Assembly: GCA_938041325.1 (NCBI GenBank)
Contig: CALIAG010000392.1
Coordinates: 1 to 49,862, forward strand
Reading direction: 5' to 3'
Length of the DNA: 49,862 nt
Source of the DNA: an uncultured Saprospiraceae bacterium
Lineage (GTDB): Bacteria > Bacteroidota > Bacteroidia > Chitinophagales > Saprospiraceae
Shown here piece by piece: positions 3,192 to 40,057 of the stretch. Numbering within the stretch: the stretch's first letter is position 1; the number at the start of each line of letters is the position of its first letter. A model generated the notes under the pieces. It worked only from the letters and a program-made list of their open reading frames with translations. It did no database searches and had not been told where the DNA came from. A program made the translations under genes and the position numbers.

Positions 3192-3632
3192 TTAAATCAT
3201 TGTAGGCAGAATTGCCGTTCTCAACCAAAAATCTTCAATTCGTTGAATAATATCAAAAAACTTATCGAAGTCTACAGGTTTGTTGATATAGCAGTTTACG
3301 TGGAGGTTATAACTCTTTATAATGTCTTGTTCTGCATTAGATGTAGTTAAAACAACAACAGGTATTCTTTTTAAATTGGGCTCCGATTTGATGTATTCTA
3401 GGACTTCTCTTCCATCTTTTTTAGGTAGATTCAAGTCGAGAAGTATTAAATCAGGCGTAACAACTTCTTCGTATGGCGATTCTTTCTTTAAAAACTTTAT
3501 AGTTTCAACACCATCCATAACCAATTCAAGGTTAACGTCCATTTTACCTTCTTTGAAAGCTTCTTGGGTTAACCGAACATCCCCCGGATTGTCTTCAATC
3601 AGTAAAATATTTACAGGTCTTGATTTCTTCAT
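3192..3632 (-). CDS. Single-domain response regulator (CheY-like, Rcp1 type)
   Basis: A 146-residue stand-alone receiver domain with no output domain. Conserved residues are visible: the acidic pair E13/D14, phospho-acceptor D66 in LILLDLNLP, the Thr/Ser region VVLTTSNA, and K118 in INKPVD. The longer loop after the first strand and the GREVLEYIK signature are typical of Rcp1-like regulators that partner phytochrome-type kinases. It is the promoter-proximal gene of a two-gene unit with the hybrid kinase, 53 bp apart, so it probably accepts or shuttles phosphate for that kinase or for a distant one. The start at 3632 is ATG directly followed by a Lys-rich N terminus. Confidence 0.9.
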   Translation of the reverse strand: MKKSRPVNILLIEDNPGDVRLTQEAFKEGKMDVNLELVMDGVETIKFLKKESPYEEVVTPDLILLDLNLPKKDGREVLEYIKSEPNLKRIPVVVLTTSNAEQDIIKSYNLHVNCYINKPVDFDKFFDIIQRIEDFWLRTAILPTMI

Positions 3633-4073: not shown

Positions 4074-5603
4074 TCAATGGTGTGTTTTCATTTGTAAGCT
4101 TTGATAATCCACTTTATGGGTACTCGTTTTTGGAATTGCTTCTAAAAAATGAAAATGATCTGGAAGCATGTACCGTAGTAGGTGGGTCATGCAATATTGT
4201 TTTAGCTGAAAAGTTTTAATCGGCTGGGAAGTTGAATTAAGGACAACGAAAGCATTTATTTGTGTTTCGCCGCTTTCCAATCCATTGGCAATAACTGCCG
4301 CTTCTAGTAAGGCTGGATGACTGTTCAATATCTGTTCAATTTCTCCGAGTTCAATACGGTATCCGCGGCGTTTGACCATACGATCACGTCGCCCAATAAA
4401 AATATAATCAAGTCGATCATCTAATTCAACGATGTCACCAGTTCTGTACCATTTTTGTCCGTTTTTATCTTCCAAAAAAGCAGCAGCGGTTTTTTCTTTC
4501 TGCTTAAAATAGCCAGGCATTACGGAAGCGCCTTTTACAACCAATTCACCGCGCTGTCCTTTTTCAATTGGTTTAAAGCTTTCCTCCCAAATTCGACATT
4601 CTACATGATTGCAGGAGGTGCCAATCGGAAAAGGCGTATTTTGATCAAGAGGTATTATTTCTGGTAAACGAAAATAAGTGACAACATTCGTTTCAGTAGG
4701 CCCATAAAGGTTATAAAAAGTAACCTGATTCCATGCTGATTTTAATCCTTTTAATGGCTCGATGTGAAAGACTTCACCAGCAAAAAGAACCAAATTTAAA
4801 CTGCTGTGATCGTATCGGTCTATTTTTCCATACTGTAAAATCAATTTCAAAACACTTGGAGTGCTATACATCACTGATATCTTGTATTCAGAAATCAATG
4901 AAGAAATTAGCAACGGATTTTTTGCAGTTTTTTGATCGAATAAAATAAGTGTACCGCCATGTAAGAGACTAACATATAAATCAAAAATCGATAAGTCAAA
5001 ATGAAAAGGAGCAATAGAAGAAAATATTTCGTGATCTGCGAAAGTAAAGGTTTCAGCGCACCACTGGATGAAGCTTAGCGCATTTCGATGCGTTATCATT
5101 ACTCCTTTAGGATTCCCTGTTGAACCTGATGTATAAAGGAGGTAAGCAAGGTCGCTTGGGAAGCTTTCTACCACCGGTGAATCATAGGTACAAAGCAATA
5201 GTTTTAATTGAGGAAGGCCCGGAATGTCGATGGTGTCAGTTACTCCCTTGAATGTTGATTTATACGAATCAATCAAGTTGTCTAGTATGAAAATAGCCGC
5301 TACCTGGCAGTCAGTAAAGATGTAAGCATTCCTACTAACTGGAGCAGTATCATCAACGGGAACATAAACGGCATCTGTATGTAAAGTGGCTAAAACAGCA
5401 ACCACTTTGTCACAGGATTTAGGCAGATAAATACCTATGCGATCACTGGCTTTGATATTATGATCGCTGAGCAATTGACTGAGTGAAGTAATTTTATCAA
5501 ATAGTTTAGAGTAATTGATTTGCTCTTTTTCAGGAGTTATAACGGCAGTCCGATTCGGGTAATTTTCTTTGGCTTGTACAAGTATATCTTTTAATGAAAC
5601 CAT
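4074..5603 (-). CDS. AMP-forming amino-acid adenylating enzyme, prolyl-AMP ligase-like (PltF/PigI type)
   Basis: A 509-residue ANL-superfamily enzyme that should activate a carboxylic acid as acyl-AMP and load it onto a carrier protein thiol. Core motifs are clear: A3 at about 156-168 (LYTSGSTGNPKG), A5 NLYGPTE at 298-304, A7 YRTGD at 386-390, A8 around GRRDRMVKRRGYRIELG at 404-420, and the A10 lysine K497 in THKVDY. There is no fused condensation or carrier domain, so it is a stand-alone A protein. The next gene upstream is an acyl-CoA-dehydrogenase-like protein; this pairing is characteristic of prolyl-carrier-protein to pyrrolyl modules (PltF/PltE, PigI/PigA, Bmp4/Bmp3). Proline specificity is inferred from context. 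DltA-like D-alanine activation is the main alternative. Confidence 0.8.
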   Translation of the reverse strand: MVSLKDILVQAKENYPNRTAVITPEKEQINYSKLFDKITSLSQLLSDHNIKASDRIGIYLPKSCDKVVAVLATLHTDAVYVPVDDTAPVSRNAYIFTDCQVAAIFILDNLIDSYKSTFKGVTDTIDIPGLPQLKLLLCTYDSPVVESFPSDLAYLLYTSGSTGNPKGVMITHRNALSFIQWCAETFTFADHEIFSSIAPFHFDLSIFDLYVSLLHGGTLILFDQKTAKNPLLISSLISEYKISVMYSTPSVLKLILQYGKIDRYDHSSLNLVLFAGEVFHIEPLKGLKSAWNQVTFYNLYGPTETNVVTYFRLPEIIPLDQNTPFPIGTSCNHVECRIWEESFKPIEKGQRGELVVKGASVMPGYFKQKEKTAAAFLEDKNGQKWYRTGDIVELDDRLDYIFIGRRDRMVKRRGYRIELGEIEQILNSHPALLEAAVIANGLESGETQINAFVVLNSTSQPIKTFQLKQYCMTHLLRYMLPDHFHFLEAIPKTSTHKVDYQSLQMKTHH

Positions 5604-5682
5604 AAATTTTAGGTTCTAATTTTTACAAATAACACACTAAAGCCTGCTTCCAATAGTTTGCAGAATAGCCTTGTGAACAGAA

Positions 5683-6828
5683 TCAAATCCCCATCCACTT
5701 AGCAATAATATTTCGCTGAATTTCCGAAGTCCCTGAGTAGACCGTAGCACTCATCGCATCCCGCATATTGCGTTCAATTTCGCTGCCTTCCACATAAGCC
5801 TGACTGGCATAAATTTGCATCAAACGAACAGTCATATCTTTGTACAATTCGCTTACCAAGAGTTTACTCATAGAAGCGTCCATCGCGACTTTTTTTCCGC
5901 TATCCAGTTTTTGCGCAGTCTGATAATTGACTAGGCGTGCCGCTTCCAAATGAGCTTTCATATCGACCAATTGATGTGCGATAGATTGGTACTTGCCAAT
6001 TGATTTTCCACCAGACTTACGTTTTTTTACAAATCGAATAGTTTGTTCCAAAAGGCGTTGCATAGTGCCCAGGTGAAGTGCGCCCAGACAAATGCGTTCC
6101 CATTCCATAGATTGATTAAAAATGATACCACCAGCACCAGCTTCGTTTAATCTATTTTCTGTTGGAACAAAAGCATCATGTAGTTGAACCGTTCCGGTCG
6201 TGCAAGTACGCAATCCTGTTTTTTGAATTGATTCAATATTAAAAGATTGTTTTCCCTTTTCCAGTAAAAAAGCAGTAATGCCTCCATAGAATCCTTTGTC
6301 GGGATTGCTAAGAGCGTAGGTAAGTATAAGGTCAGCAATAGGTGCGTTGGCACAAAAGGTTTTATGGCCGTTGAGGAGATAACCATTGTTGCTTTGCTGA
6401 GCGGTGGTTTTGAGTTCGAATGCATCTGAACCGCTTTGCACTTCAGTCATCGCGTTTGCAGCAATCATCTTTCCCATACATAAATCAGGGAGCAGCCTTT
6501 GTTTTTGTGCTTCCGAACCATGCAACCAAATCGGAACAACACAGGCCAATAGATGCGCAGCAATCGAAAAATTCAATCCATTATCCTTACTGCCATAGCC
6601 CAATGCTTCCAGTGCCAATACAGTGCTAAGTGCATCCAATCCCTTTCCTCCATATGCTTTCGGGACAGCGAGCCCTTGCAGCAAAAGGGTGCCACATTGA
6701 TCCCATCCTGCACGATCAAAAACAGAGTTGGCATCACGACTTGCAATGTCTTTGCCGAGCATCTGTCCTGCAAATTCAATAATTTGTTGTTTGAAATTTT
6801 CTTGTTCCTGGTTTAACCCAAAGTTCAT
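5683..6828 (-). CDS. Acyl-CoA dehydrogenase-like flavoprotein, prolyl-carrier-protein dehydrogenase-like (PltE/PigA type)
   Basis: A 381-residue FAD enzyme with the full acyl-CoA dehydrogenase fold: N-terminal helical domain, the middle beta domain with AMTEVQSGSD at about 126-134, and a C-terminal helical domain ending in GTSEIQRNIIAKW. The glutamate usually found just before this last motif in medium-chain enzymes is Ser here (YSGTSEIQ). A glutamate sits instead at 244 in MEWERI, the helix-G position used by isovaleryl-CoA and prolyl-carrier dehydrogenases. NGHKTFCANAPIADL also resembles PltE-type proteins as I remember them. It lies 79 bp upstream of the adenylating enzyme. Predicted reaction: oxidation of a carrier-bound prolyl group to pyrrolyl; short branched acyl-CoA oxidation remains possible. 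Confidence 0.75.
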   Translation of the reverse strand: MNFGLNQEQENFKQQIIEFAGQMLGKDIASRDANSVFDRAGWDQCGTLLLQGLAVPKAYGGKGLDALSTVLALEALGYGSKDNGLNFSIAAHLLACVVPIWLHGSEAQKQRLLPDLCMGKMIAANAMTEVQSGSDAFELKTTAQQSNNGYLLNGHKTFCANAPIADLILTYALSNPDKGFYGGITAFLLEKGKQSFNIESIQKTGLRTCTTGTVQLHDAFVPTENRLNEAGAGGIIFNQSMEWERICLGALHLGTMQRLLEQTIRFVKKRKSGGKSIGKYQSIAHQLVDMKAHLEAARLVNYQTAQKLDSGKKVAMDASMSKLLVSELYKDMTVRLMQIYASQAYVEGSEIERNMRDAMSATVYSGTSEIQRNIIAKWMGI

Positions 6829-6882: not shown

Positions 6883-7122
<240 letters not shown>

Positions 7123-7376: not shown

Positions 7377-8354
7377 ATGATTACATTTAAAAAAGCACAA
7401 CAATCATTTCTTCAATATTTGGACGAAAATCAACTTCAAAAAAGTCCTATTGAATTATACGAACCGATCAACTACATAATGGGCTTAGGAGGTAAAAGAG
7501 TAAGACCGACATTGCTTTTAATGGGCTATGGTTTATTTGATTCTGAAATTGAAAAAGTATTGCCTGCTGCTTATGGAATTGAACTCTTCCATAATTTTAC
7601 ATTGCTACACGATGATATAATGGATGAAGCGCCACTTCGAAGAGGAAAGGCCACCGTCCATTCGAAATATAATATCAATACTGGAATCTTATCTGGCGAT
7701 GCTATGTTAATCCAGAGTTATGAATATATAATGAGACTAGCGCCACACGAGAATTTGACAGAAGTCCTTCATACTTTTAATAAAGTGGCAATAGAGGTTT
7801 GTGAAGGCCAGCAAATGGATATGAACTTTGAGACAACCAATGATGTTCAAATTGAGCAATATTTAAAAATGATTGAGCTCAAAACGGCGGTTTTATTAGC
7901 AGGGGCACTTAAAATGGGGGCTTTGTTTGCAGGAGCAAATAAAGAGGATGCCAATGATATCTATCAATTTGGACGAAACATAGGAATTGCTTTTCAATTA
8001 CAGGATGACATTTTAGATAGCTATGGTGATCCTGAAAAGTTTGGTAAAAAAGTAGGTGGAGATATTATCCAAGGCAAAAAGACTTACCTCGTGTTGAAGA
8101 CATTTGAATTATGCAAAGCAGATGAAAAACAAAATTTCATAGACCTTCTTCAAGATCATTCCATGAAGGAAGAAGATAAGGTAATGAAAGTAAAAACGAT
8201 ATTCAACAGCTTAAACATTAGATCATTGGCAGAAAAGCTAATGATTACTTATCAGGATACTGCTTTCCAATTCTTAGATAAGATAAAAGTCGATAGGGAA
8301 AGAAAACAAGAATTAAGAGATTTAGCTAATGCCCTATTGGCAAGAGATAATTAG
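7377..8354 (+). CDS. Short-chain polyprenyl diphosphate synthase (probable GGPP/FPP synthase)
   Basis: A 325-residue trans-isoprenyl diphosphate synthase that condenses isopentenyl diphosphate with an allylic primer. The first aspartate-rich motif is LLHDDIMD (D79, D80, D83) and the second is QLQDDILD (D210, D211, D214). GGKRVRP at 38-44 provides substrate-binding residues. The aromatic residue F74, five positions before the first motif, and the absence of an insertion in that motif point to a short product such as C20, though chain length cannot be fixed by reading. It is monocistronic, with a near-consensus -7 box (GATATTTG) at 7313-7320. It could supply GGPP for the carotenoids made by the cluster at 37469-40057, or quinone side-chain primers. 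Confidence 0.85.
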   Translation: MITFKKAQQSFLQYLDENQLQKSPIELYEPINYIMGLGGKRVRPTLLLMGYGLFDSEIEKVLPAAYGIELFHNFTLLHDDIMDEAPLRRGKATVHSKYNINTGILSGDAMLIQSYEYIMRLAPHENLTEVLHTFNKVAIEVCEGQQMDMNFETTNDVQIEQYLKMIELKTAVLLAGALKMGALFAGANKEDANDIYQFGRNIGIAFQLQDDILDSYGDPEKFGKKVGGDIIQGKKTYLVLKTFELCKADEKQNFIDLLQDHSMKEEDKVMKVKTIFNSLNIRSLAEKLMITYQDTAFQFLDKIKVDRERKQELRDLANALLARDN

Positions 8355-37468: not shown

Positions 37469-37936
37469 TTATTTCCAGAATTTTCTTTTTTTGAAATATT
37501 TGCTGTTCACAATTAGAAGACCAAAAGATTCTCCATCTTCTTTTTCTTGTTTTGCGTGATGCGCCCCATGAGCACGAAGGATTGCACGAGAATAGGGATT
37601 GTCAAGATGTTTGAACCAATTGAATCGTCTGTGAATATAGACATCATGGATTAAAAAATAAATGAGTCCATATATCGAAATTCCAACTCCTATAAAGAAC
37701 AACCAAAGGTGTGGAGTGGCAGAACCAAGAACATAGCAAGTCGCACTAGGAATAGCGAAAACAAGGAAAAATAAATCGTTTTTTTCAAAAAAACCATCCT
37801 TTAGGTGAGGCTTGTGATGATCTTCATGCCAGGACCACAATATGCCGTGCATAACGAATTTGTGGGCAAACCAAGCCACAAATTCCATAAAAAGAACAGT
37901 AGCTATCGTAATGAAAAAGTATAAAAGAAAACTCAT
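37469..37936 (-). CDS. crtZ: Beta-carotene 3-hydroxylase
   Basis: A 155-residue membrane di-iron hydroxylase of the fatty-acid-hydroxylase superfamily that adds a 3-hydroxyl to the beta-ionone ring. The histidine clusters are all present: HKFVMH (25-30), HEDHH (37-41), HDVYIHRR (97-104) and HGAHH (123-127). Four hydrophobic segments separate them. It ends a three-gene minus-strand unit with cruF (4 bp upstream) and crtD. In this context it would hydroxylate the cyclised end of a monocyclic carotenoid. Length and motif spacing match bacterial CrtZ. Confidence 0.92.
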   Translation of the reverse strand: MSFLLYFFITIATVLFMEFVAWFAHKFVMHGILWSWHEDHHKPHLKDGFFEKNDLFFLVFAIPSATCYVLGSATPHLWLFFIGVGISIYGLIYFLIHDVYIHRRFNWFKHLDNPYSRAILRAHGAHHAKQEKEDGESFGLLIVNSKYFKKRKFWK

Positions 37937-37940
37937 GATT

Positions 37941-38579
37941 CTACAGTTTTACACTCAAAAGGCCAAAAAATGCGATTTGTAAGATAAACAAGAAAATCGC
38001 TGCTTTGTTGTTGACTTTGTTTACGAAACTAAAAAAAAGAATTTGAATGAGGAAAGCAATTACAAACCAAGATAAATAATTTTCTATCGGCACATGTGGT
38101 TTTTCCCAAGTCCAAAAGCCATAGTGTATGGCGACAGGTTCCATTATGAAATCCAACAGCAATAGCAACAAAGCCCCAAATCCTGATTTTATATAAATAT
38201 TTTGATGAGAAATCAAGTAATTGGCGATCACCCCTCCGCAATAACTCAACATTACCCAGTTAATTCCAATCATCAACGGAGTTTCCCAAAGCTTGAAGCC
38301 AAGTACCGACCCGTAACTGTATTCACCAAATGGAAATCCTGTATTAACACCAAGAACTTCAACTCCAAAACCGATTAAAAAACTACCGATTAAAAATAGG
38401 AAGAAAGAGCGATCCCAGTTTTCGTGATTCCAGAGCATGACGGATAATGAAAGCAATAAATTTAAAGGTGTTAAGCTCAACAAGTCGGGTTCCAATCTCC
38501 ATCCAATCCCTACAATTCCAACGGAATAGAAGACGGTCAAAATGATAATTGAAATGGATAATTTATTTTCTGCAATCAA
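37941..38579 (-). CDS. cruF: Carotenoid 1'-hydratase/hydroxylase, CruF family
   Basis: A 212-residue integral membrane protein with about six hydrophobic segments and no cofactor motif, of the carotenoid synthesis family that contains CruF (1'-hydroxylase of the psi end of gamma-carotene). Conserved charged and aromatic residues sit in loops, notably NTGFPFGEYSYGSVLG, NWVMLSYCGG and DFIMEPVAIHYGFW. It lies 4 bp from crtZ and 20 bp from crtD, so the three are surely co-transcribed. Predicted role: water addition at C1' of the acyclic end. Some members of the family may have other roles, so the symbol rests partly on context. Confidence 0.85.
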   Translation of the reverse strand: MIAENKLSISIIILTVFYSVGIVGIGWRLEPDLLSLTPLNLLLSLSVMLWNHENWDRSFFLFLIGSFLIGFGVEVLGVNTGFPFGEYSYGSVLGFKLWETPLMIGINWVMLSYCGGVIANYLISHQNIYIKSGFGALLLLLLDFIMEPVAIHYGFWTWEKPHVPIENYLSWFVIAFLIQILFFSFVNKVNNKAAIFLFILQIAFFGLLSVKL

Positions 38580-38599
38580 TATTAAAAGAATTTGAAAAT

Positions 38600-40057
38600 T
38601 CAGGAATGAATGAGTTCGTCAATTATTTTAGCGGACAACAAACATAGTGGAATTCCACCCCCGGGGTGAACACTTCCACCACAAAAATACAAGCCTTTTA
38701 TTTTATTAGAAAAATTCGGATGCCTCAAAAAGGCTGCCATCCGGTTATTGGAACTAGTGCCATAAAGAGCGCCCAAATGAGAAGAAGTTCTGCTTTCGAT
38801 TTTTATAGGATCTAGTATATCTTCTTCTTGAATTAAGGGCTCGATAGAAACACCGATTGTTCTTTTGATTTTATTGAGAATATTTTGACGACTTTTCTTA
38901 ATCAATTCCTCCCAGTTTTGACCGGAGTTAAAAGGAACATTGATCATTGTAAACCAATTTTCGCAGTCGGCTGGCGCATCGCCTTTTTCATGCTTACTGG
39001 TGATGTTTATGTAGACTGTTGGGTCGTCAGATATTTTACCGGAATCCAGTAAATCAAATTCTTCTCGATAGTTTTCACTAAAGAGAATGTTATGTAATCC
39101 AAGTTCTTTAAATTGCTTTTTGATGCCCCAATAAAAAATGAGTGCTGAAGTAGATTTGGGTTGGTTAAGGGTTTTATGTGGATGCTTTTCTTTCGGTAAC
39201 AATTGTCGGTAGGCATGAAAAACATCCATGTTGCAAATGACTTTATCGCAATGATGAGTTTGGCTCCCAACGCTAAGTGCATGTGCTGTTTTGTTTTTGA
39301 CCAGTATTTCATTGACTTTCGCATCAAAATGAAAAGTGACTCCTTTTGAAATAGCCAATTGATACAACGTATTTGTAATGGAGTGCATTCCGCCTTTTGG
39401 AAAGAATGCCCCGACCTTGTGTTCGAAATAAGGGATGATGTTTAAAAGACCAGGAGCTTTGTAAGGATTGGAACCATTATAAGTTGCAAATCGATTAAAA
39501 AGCTGAACGAGTTTTGGGTGATCGAAAAGTTGTTTGTTGGTCTTATGCATTGAACGAAACAAGTCCAAACCAGGAATCTTGAACAGGGCTTTTATGACTT
39601 CGAAGTTGGTCCAAGTGTTAAGTTTGTGCAATGAGTTTTCCAAAAATATTTTTCCAGTTACCTCGTACTTTCTTTTACTTTCATCCAACGCTTGGTGTAT
39701 CTGTTGTCCATTCACTCCAAGAACCTTGCTTACTTCTTCTGCAAAAAGATTGGAGTCTGAAAAAGCTTTCAAACGAGTTTGATCTTCCCAGAAATAATGG
39801 CAGACAACTTCAAGTTTTTTATATTGAAAATGGTCGTCAATTTTAACGCCTGCAACTTCAAATAAATCCTCTACATATTGTGCTTGGGTAAATAAAGAAG
39901 GTCCAGCATCAAAGCGATAGTTGCCTAATTTGAATTGGGATAGTTTCCCACCAGGATATGAATTGGCTTCAAAAACTTCTACCTCATGACCTTTTGAAGC
40001 CATTCGAATGGCTGAAGCCAATCCCCCGATTCCCGCGCCTATAATTCCTATTTTCAC
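38600..40057 (-). CDS. crtD: Carotenoid 3,4-desaturase (CrtD-like), phytoene desaturase family
   Basis: A 485-residue FAD-dependent desaturase. The N-terminal dinucleotide motif is IGAGIGGLASAIRMASKG (5-22) with an acidic residue closing the fold (EVFEAN). The middle segment TYNGSNPYKAPGLLNII and GAFFPKGGMHSI resembles CrtD more than the phytoene-to-lycopene enzyme CrtI. The C terminus has the second FAD motif YFCGGSVHPGGGIPL. It heads the three-gene unit with cruF and crtZ. The predicted reaction is introduction of the 3',4' double bond beside a 1'-hydroxyl. A plain CrtI role cannot be excluded without comparison to a second copy elsewhere in the genome. Confidence 0.85.
   Translation of the reverse strand: MKIGIIGAGIGGLASAIRMASKGHEVEVFEANSYPGGKLSQFKLGNYRFDAGPSLFTQAQYVEDLFEVAGVKIDDHFQYKKLEVVCHYFWEDQTRLKAFSDSNLFAEEVSKVLGVNGQQIHQALDESKRKYEVTGKIFLENSLHKLNTWTNFEVIKALFKIPGLDLFRSMHKTNKQLFDHPKLVQLFNRFATYNGSNPYKAPGLLNIIPYFEHKVGAFFPKGGMHSITNTLYQLAISKGVTFHFDAKVNEILVKNKTAHALSVGSQTHHCDKVICNMDVFHAYRQLLPKEKHPHKTLNQPKSTSALIFYWGIKKQFKELGLHNILFSENYREEFDLLDSGKISDDPTVYINITSKHEKGDAPADCENWFTMINVPFNSGQNWEELIKKSRQNILNKIKRTIGVSIEPLIQEEDILDPIKIESRTSSHLGALYGTSSNNRMAAFLRHPNFSNKIKGLYFCGGSVHPGGGIPLCLLSAKIIDELIHS

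Follow-up and report, generated by a model that had tools for sequence, protein, structure and literature searches.

A probable proline-to-pyrrole enzyme pair in an uncultured Saprospiraceae bacterium, set apart from a scattered gene cluster that may modify a surface glycan

Modules that form pyrroles have been described for antibiotics, toxins, and pigments. The thiotemplated ones include PltF/PltE/PltL, PigI/PigA/PigG, CloN4/CloN3/CloN5, and Bmp4/Bmp3/Bmp1, and in the case of pyoluteorin, PltA is said to dichlorinate the pyrrolyl-S-carrier. Activation, loading, and oxidation of proline on a carrier protein are described in PMC10849742. The stretch analysed here (the window) comprises 49,862 nucleotides of an uncultured Saprospiraceae bacterium (contig CALIAG010000392.1 of assembly GCA_938041325.1), and encodes a ligase and a dehydrogenase of this kind side by side, without a carrier protein. 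The reading favoured here, with a probability of roughly 0.6, is that the window provides for activation and oxidation in a pyrrole-2-carboxyl pathway, the rest of which lies elsewhere in the genome and would carry out a Dlt-like esterification of a glycan.

Three further systems offer points of comparison. In the Dlt system, an MBOAT protein takes D-alanine from the carrier, and the residue passes via a tyrosine to an SGNH protein and then to the polymer, while in PatA/PatB an MBOAT and an SGNH protein transfer an acyl group to an envelope glycan (both as given in the available sections of PMC12148441). In clorobiocin, a proline-derived pyrrole-2-carboxyl group is put on a sugar hydroxyl by a route that involves CloN4, N5, and N3, then N2, N1, N6, and N7, with a second carrier and the acyltransferase CloN7 (PMC11218499, also available in part).

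The two genes of the pair are intact open reading frames (ORFs), adjacent to each other where the first-pass annotation of this DNA had placed them:

4074-5603, minus strand: ligase, a stand-alone adenylation enzyme of 509 aa, assigned from TIGR01733, its specificity code, and the ligase tree
5683-6828, minus strand: dehydrogenase of the PltE/PigA/Bmp3/AnaB kind, 381 aa, assigned from the PigA model, solved chains, the dehydrogenase tree, and residues E244 and S365

The dehydrogenase scores 409 bits against the PigA model (NF053553; curated cut-off 500) and 357 bits against RedW (cut-off 650), the other families listed reaching 229 bits at most (acryloyl-CoA reductase, 229). Its sequence places it with the thiotemplated pyrrole enzymes, though it stays under the PigA equivalog cut-off. 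Its closest solved chains are 4irn (327 bits), 5zw0 (298), 6af6 (295), and 6cxt (247), followed by 4l1f, an acyl-CoA dehydrogenase domain protein, with 216 bits. The residues singled out in the first-pass annotation are seen in the alignment: E244 aligns with the Glu of 5zw0 (6af6 has Ala there), and a serine, S365, takes the usual position of the C-terminal Glu.

Related enzymes were collected from a survey of 298 genomes of the family, evenly drawn from a larger group, with a threshold of E 1e-60 for dehydrogenase matches. Throughout, G-numbers denote genomes (G000 is that of the window, the others those of relatives), C-numbers contigs (the window contig is C392 of G000), and L-numbers fetched loci. 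In a quick tree of 64 rows, supported only by the Shimodaira-Hasegawa-like approximate likelihood ratio test and from which a length filter had removed the second dehydrogenase-like ORF of G135 (639 aa), all prolyl-type rows, including three solved prolyl-carrier enzymes, come together with support 100. Ordinary acyl-CoA dehydrogenases lie outside, and the phylogenetic comparison proposed earlier therefore places the window enzyme with the prolyl-carrier enzymes and not with the ordinary ones. Two groups, given here the working names glycan-type and nonribosomal peptide synthetase (NRPS)-type, can be distinguished within the prolyl-type rows. The former contains 25 rows including the window (support 93) and stands beside 5zw0 and 6cxt, and the latter contains 28 rows (support 97) and stands beside L042 and 4irn. 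The window dehydrogenase itself joins a group of seven rows containing G132 and G029 (support 80). Columns 244 and 365 hold E and S in 25/25 glycan-type rows; in the 29 others (the NRPS-type rows and L042), D is found in 28/29 and A in 28/29. A dehydrogenase match was present in 46 of the 298 genomes, which the tree divides into 18 glycan-type and 28 NRPS-type genomes, with G000 in both groups and G268, whose match groups with the ordinary enzymes, counted in neither (18 + 28 - 1 + 1).

The NRPS-type member of the window's own genome lies on contig C416, where an NRPS cluster includes, at the end of the contig, a second prolyl-type dehydrogenase and a ligase (L050, 11080-12231 and 12228-12784). 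The chemistry of this C416 dehydrogenase may differ from that of the pyrrole-forming enzymes, because in its group Asp and Ala replace their Glu and Ser (28/29 rows each).

The ligase is recognised by the amino-acid adenylation model TIGR01733 (336 bits, over the cut-off of 317.4), and two DltA models give 296 and 283 bits, far under their cut-offs (TIGR01734, 283 against 559.85). The best single-domain solved chain is 6o6e, an L-proline--[L-prolyl-carrier protein] ligase that we take to be PltF, with 290 bits; two-module gramicidin synthetase chains outscore it only by adding two domains of about 189 bits each. Over the specificity stretch alone, 6o6e reaches 102 bits and the DltA chains 74 and 64, so that DltA, raised in the first-pass annotation as a competing assignment, is not the nearest relative there. 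At positions 235, 236, 239, 278, 299, 301, 322, 330, and 331, which we presume to be the numbering of the adenylation code, the window reads DLFYLALVV, followed by K. The corresponding residues in that alignment are DLLYLALVC for 6o6e and DLMTLCTVA for the DltA chain 3fcc; the window thus agrees with 6o6e at 7/9 positions. In the ligase tree, the window enzyme is joined with those of G132 and G029 (support 97). The ligase is predicted to load L-proline onto a carrier protein, and would resemble the Dlt ligase in logic without being a DltA.

Phylogeny, the specificity code (read from a sequence alignment rather than a structural model), and the catalytic residues all agree with the prolyl-to-pyrrolyl reading given to the pair at first sight. 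The pair very probably converts proline to a pyrrole; at the sequence level, activation and oxidation are both well supported, with proline as the presumed substrate. Alternatively, the substrate might be a different amino acid or the partner a different carrier, such as that of the NRPS cluster on C416, which encodes an NRPS; other carriers do exist in the genome, and 2/9 code positions differ from 6o6e. This is the least probable of the explanations weighed here, since C416 has dehydrogenase and ligase genes of its own that belong to the other clade (28/29 Asp, 28/29 Ala), and since the code of the window, one letter off the commonest, is common to four other glycan-type ligases. Across the 21 glycan-type ligases including that of the window, DLFYLALVCK is the commonest code (7) and the window's DLFYLALVVK the next (5); ORFs below 430 aa, above 640 aa, or under 200 bits, among them those of L082 and C416, are excluded from the code table and the ligase tree.

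Such enzymes are expected to work on a carrier-bound substrate, and the first-pass annotation had already remarked that none is encoded nearby. A search of the whole genome with PF00550 gave 11 matches, none of them on C392. Four of these sit in short open frames (C124, C445, C480, and C259), which were read by context and by eye, and that of C259 is the one that fits:

L051:7664-7912 (contig C259 of G000): carrier protein of 82 aa with a DSIS motif, intact (PF00550, 28.3 bits, cut-off 20.8)

The C124 match stands beside a FabF-type gene and is a housekeeping acyl carrier protein, that of C445 stands beside reductase and ketosynthase genes, and that of C480 beside a receptor-like gene. The remaining matches fall in large frames on C555, C416, and C461, and C416 was set aside as a partner, since the dehydrogenase and ligase encoded there belong to the other clade.

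On C259, the carrier gene lies between the gene of an ATP-binding cassette (ABC) permease, ABC-2, and a small ORF about 45 bases further on. In G132, G029, and G154 (contig C159), the same slot holds the carrier, ligase, dehydrogenase, and flavin adenine dinucleotide (FAD) enzyme genes, followed by the small ORF, which in G132 and G029 is preceded by a methyltransferase gene. The C259 carrier is the likely partner because it is intact and occupies the matching cluster slot, and it would be loaded in trans by the window ligase. It does not resemble a DltC closely (TIGR01688, 23.8 bits, under 52.35), and its best family is the acyl carrier of ornithine-lipid synthesis (67 bits against a cut-off of 130).

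The surroundings of the carrier include an ABC ATPase, glycosyltransferases, sulfotransferases, and a membrane protein of about 1,000 aa. Pfam recognises an ABC-2 membrane protein and an ABC ATPase among the export genes, presumably of the Wzm and Wzt kinds. The C259 cluster is predicted, because of this gene content, to export a glycan. The membrane protein (L051:10618-13659), for which Pfam gives no match, stands near glycosyltransferase genes and is also found in 8/24 relatives. A small, apparently secreted protein of some 110-140 aa (L051:7957-8379, L056:7331-7663) accompanies the module in 6/24 relatives as well as on C259; no Pfam match was obtained for the G029 copy.

Other pieces are found on contigs C209 and C79. 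C209 encodes an intact FAD enzyme, a methyltransferase, and a sulfotransferase. A large membrane protein is divided between the two contigs, with its C-terminal part on C209 and its N-terminal part at the end of C79. The ends of both contigs share exactly 141 identical bases, and the two parts are therefore read as one gene interrupted by the assembly. The FAD enzyme carries the sequences GGGPAG and WLWMIP, corresponding to the GxGxxG and WxWxIP motifs that we take to mark flavin-dependent halogenases. Its best solved relatives are ChlB4 (169 bits), 8zop (a halogenase, 163), CmlS (158), PltA (157), and 5buk, within a range of 155-169 bits. It reaches 102 bits with PF04820, Trp_halogenase (cut-off 21), and 198 bits with the NCBIfam halogenase model CmlS (cut-off 900), and in a tree of FAD enzymes it joins those of G132 and G029 (support 90). 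The protein is halogenase-like, and would probably halogenate its substrate. A second FAD subtype lacking WxWxIP, which may not be a halogenase, is found beside the glycan-type modules of L060 (10134-11450), L063, L065, L079, and L113 (five rows), and the FAD enzymes of G340 and G352 also lack the motif.

The large membrane protein appears to combine an MBOAT-like half and an SGNH-like domain. Comparison of the N-terminal half with MBOAT by hhalign, from 7 and 5 rows, gives a probability of 97.5 (E 5.6e-12), and the DltB match is weak (19.1 bits, cut-off 375). The C-terminal domain resembles SGNH proteins (32.1 bits in L039, against a cut-off of 32.9). Residues H362, S632, D827, H829, and H835 (G029 numbering) are invariant in 7/7 MBOAT-SGNH members.

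The pieces found on the four contigs point to common relatives. In a best-match comparison among the fetched loci only, G132 or G029 provides the best match for the ligase and dehydrogenase of the window, for the carrier, permease, both glycosyltransferases, and 1,000-aa membrane protein of C259, and for the FAD enzyme, methyltransferase, sulfotransferase, and both MBOAT-SGNH pieces of C209/C79, and in G132 and G029 these genes lie within one 20-kb stretch. A broken-up cluster, rather than an evidently dead pathway, is the best supported interpretation. Out of the three alternatives offered by the first-pass annotation, the one placing the carrier elsewhere in the genome has thus gained most from the matching cluster slot, a dead pathway and another substrate being less likely.

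The distribution of these genes in relatives connects the dehydrogenase with the MBOAT-SGNH protein. The latter (threshold E 1e-40) was found in 19/298 genomes, namely in 17 of the 18 with the glycan type and in G184 and G236, and G000 is the only one of the 28 NRPS-type genomes to have it. Both genes occur together in 17 genomes, one without the other in 1 (dehydrogenase) and 2 (MBOAT-SGNH), and neither in 278. In the 24 other glycan-type loci (18 from the survey of 298 genomes, 3 + 3 from further searches), gene content was assessed by profile matches above 25 bits, a loose threshold, within the fetched stretch only; ligases were found in 21 (that of L082 weak and apart), carriers in 19, FAD enzymes in 18, MBOAT-type proteins in 14, permeases in 9, ATPases in 8, and methyltransferases in 7. 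The dehydrogenase gene lies with an MBOAT-SGNH gene also in L039 (Hyphomonas) and L041 (a Caulobacteraceae metagenome-assembled genome), both apparently from outside the phylum of the window, which suggests transfer between phyla. In the stretch fetched from the cultured Hyphomonas johnsonii MHS-2, the carrier, ligase, dehydrogenase, and MBOAT-SGNH genes are all present, and no FAD enzyme was seen.

These associations also bear on the idea that the pyrrolyl thioester, once formed, ends up in a small metabolite that is secreted, similar to pyoluteorin or the bromopyrroles, the glycan genes being mere neighbours. Known modules of this kind do serve small molecules, and the genome does encode a halogenase-like enzyme as well as a methyltransferase. 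Such a destination is nonetheless considered unlikely: the NRPS profile matched in 0/24 of the other loci (fetched stretches; polyketide synthase genes were not sought), while the MBOAT-SGNH protein accompanies the dehydrogenase in 17 genomes, and 14/24 loci have an MBOAT-type gene within the fetched stretch.

Several observations weigh against a carrier-dependent glycan pathway scattered over the genome. The pair has no carrier next to it, and the FAD enzyme in the window is reduced to a remnant. Some pieces find their best match elsewhere, namely the ABC ATPase and the small ORF (G154), the FAD remnant (G336), and two C259 sulfotransferases (G007, G217). The co-occurrence has a Fisher's p of 1.5e-24, a value that ignores shared ancestry, and G184 and G236 have MBOAT-SGNH without the dehydrogenase, G039 showing the reverse. 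No carrier was found in 5/24 loci; of these, L020, L040, L079, and L082 are at or near contig ends, but L041, which is not, lacks both ligase and carrier. The strict WxWxIP motif is present in only 11/20 of the FAD proteins compared. Pfam gives no MBOAT match in the large protein, for which the assignment comes from hhalign and the weak DltB match, and an AlphaFold model of the Hyphomonas MBOAT-SGNH protein, built from two rows, had a predicted local distance difference test score of 40 and was not used.

In the immediate neighbourhood of the pair, the gaps beside the dehydrogenase gene are short, 79 bases on the ligase side and 54 on the other, towards a remnant overlooked by the first-pass annotation:

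6883-7110, minus strand: FAD-enzyme remnant of the halogenase type, 75 aa, recognised by alignment to a 434-aa relative
3192-3632, minus strand: response-regulator gene, which bounds the insertion site on the left and lies outside the pathway
7377-8354, plus strand: polyprenyl diphosphate synthase gene (identified by eye), which bounds the insertion site on the right and likewise lies outside the pathway

The remnant aligns to residues 5-33 and 75-113 of the relative, with about 41 internal residues including the GES motif missing and everything past about residue 113 gone, and complete FAD and halogenase motifs are absent from it. It is nearest to the FAD-enzyme subtype without WxWxIP (G336, G039, G051). 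Together with the pair, it occupies about 3.7 kb between the two border genes. In the order FAD remnant, dehydrogenase, ligase, the arrangement is reversed compared with that of most relatives (carrier, ligase, dehydrogenase, FAD enzyme), and the G217 module shows yet another gene order.

The site was examined in six relatives, all of which keep the module on another contig, and neither ligase nor dehydrogenase matches were found in their site stretches. In three of the six, the response-regulator gene is directly next to the polyprenyl-synthase gene and leaves no room for the pair; the aligned parts are 163 bases apart in G001, 220 in G051, and 371 in G217. In G132 and G029, a sensor-kinase-type gene takes the place next to the polyprenyl-synthase gene, and in G191 neither a response-regulator nor a sensor-kinase-type gene was found in the stretch examined. 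Repeats of at least 14 nt at the island are short and none frames it, and no transposase was recognised by eye among the ORFs of the window, where no profile search was made. The best explanation is that the pair was separated from its cluster and now lies between the response-regulator and polyprenyl-synthase genes. Further along the window (37469-40057, minus strand), beyond ribosomal protein operons, carotenoid-type genes were recognised by eye, including phytoene-desaturase-like and hydroxylase-like ORFs.

Relocation could also have broken the pathway in this genome and left the pair as a relict, as the halogenase remnant beside it, its distance from the carrier, and the splitting of the cluster over contigs would suggest. 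Such a loss is considered improbable. Both ORFs are full length, and they keep the conserved columns like any ordinary member: in the columns invariant in the other glycan-type rows, the ligase keeps 74/74 (other rows, 73/73 to 74/76) and the dehydrogenase 27/28 (27/27 to 27/30), a test that a recent loss would escape. Moreover, the carrier and the halogenase-like enzyme are intact elsewhere. When no carrier is found in a short window, the case for a dead pathway is weak.

A different concern is that binning or assembly may have produced the scattering, with C259 and C209/C79 coming from another organism or the window being chimeric. The draft has 91% completeness and 1.4% contamination over 578 contigs, two of the contigs concerned (C79 and C209) are short, and the G+C content of the island (0.39, with 0.43 for the dehydrogenase gene) is slightly above that of the window (0.36) and nearer to that of the relatives' loci (0.38-0.48). 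An artefact is nevertheless very improbable, as the values for C259, C79, and C209 (0.37, 0.34, and 0.33) and their tetranucleotide correlations with the window (r of 0.92, 0.83, and 0.73, the 3-kb island itself giving 0.73) speak against it, and the island is flanked on both sides, on one contig, by genes that are neighbours in relatives. The composition does not contradict a single genome, though the G+C content of the island is slightly high.

Under the favoured reading, in which the window pair serves a scattered pyrrole-2-carboxyl pathway, the ligase would load L-proline on the 82-aa carrier of C259, and the dehydrogenase would use E244 as its base and FAD as the acceptor to convert the prolyl-S-carrier into the pyrrolyl-2-carboxyl-S-carrier. 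The halogenase-like enzyme of C209 would then probably halogenate the pyrrole ring, which the methyltransferase of C209 may methylate. Finally, the MBOAT-SGNH protein of C79/C209 would accept the carrier-bound acyl group, pass it across the membrane, and use it to esterify a glycan made and exported by the ABC-2 exporter, glycosyltransferases, and sulfotransferases of C259/C79. The overall logic would be that of the Dlt system, with a pyrrole instead of D-alanine. We infer this mechanism by combining the known proline oxidation, the Dlt transfer, and the clorobiocin pyrrole-to-sugar steps; the transfer step and the glycan as acceptor are its presumed parts. The complete version, where a fused MBOAT-SGNH protein in these bacteria and a few Alphaproteobacteria esterifies an exported surface glycan with a proline-derived, halogenated, possibly methylated pyrrole-2-carboxyl group in a carrier-dependent, Dlt-like manner and the genes have become scattered in the window's genome, is tentative and placed somewhat below even chances.

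Compared with thiotemplated pyrrole modules, the system has the same stand-alone proline-type ligase, catalytic-Glu dehydrogenase, and small carrier, accompanied in most relatives by a halogenase-like FAD enzyme. It differs in its association with ABC-2 export, glycosyltransferase, and MBOAT-type genes and, in this genome, in being spread over the window, C259, and C79/C209. Clorobiocin, in the part of PMC11218499 available, is a precedent for a proline-derived pyrrole-2-carboxyl group on a sugar hydroxyl, but its acceptor is the sugar of a small antibiotic, whereas a membrane MBOAT-SGNH protein and probably a polymer would be involved here. With Dlt (DltA, DltC, DltB, DltX, DltD), the system would share a ligase, a small carrier, and the MBOAT plus SGNH logic, the carrier thioester being the donor for the MBOAT protein (PMC12148441, in part). 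Unlike Dlt, it has a proline-type code, a dehydrogenase for oxidation and a halogenase-like enzyme expected to act on the carrier, and apparently MBOAT and SGNH in one chain. It would work like Dlt without being a member, the scores lying under the DltA, DltC, and DltB cut-offs. PatA/PatB also combine MBOAT and SGNH in acyl transfer to an envelope glycan but, within the accessible text of the same source, use acetyl-CoA, no carrier protein, and two separate proteins. Among the papers listed in a literature search of partial coverage, with most subscription journals outside it, none dealt with pyrrole-decorated bacterial glycans as judged by title and the opening of the abstract, and none contained the ligase code strings.

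The position of the carrier gene in what appears to be a surface-sugar cluster suggests pyrrole groups, perhaps halogenated, as a decoration of surface sugars in these bacteria. If so, carrier-based envelope acylation would include, besides D-alanine, an aromatic group that is oxidised and probably halogenated, and a halogenated cell-surface polymer would be a source of organohalogen on bacterial surfaces.

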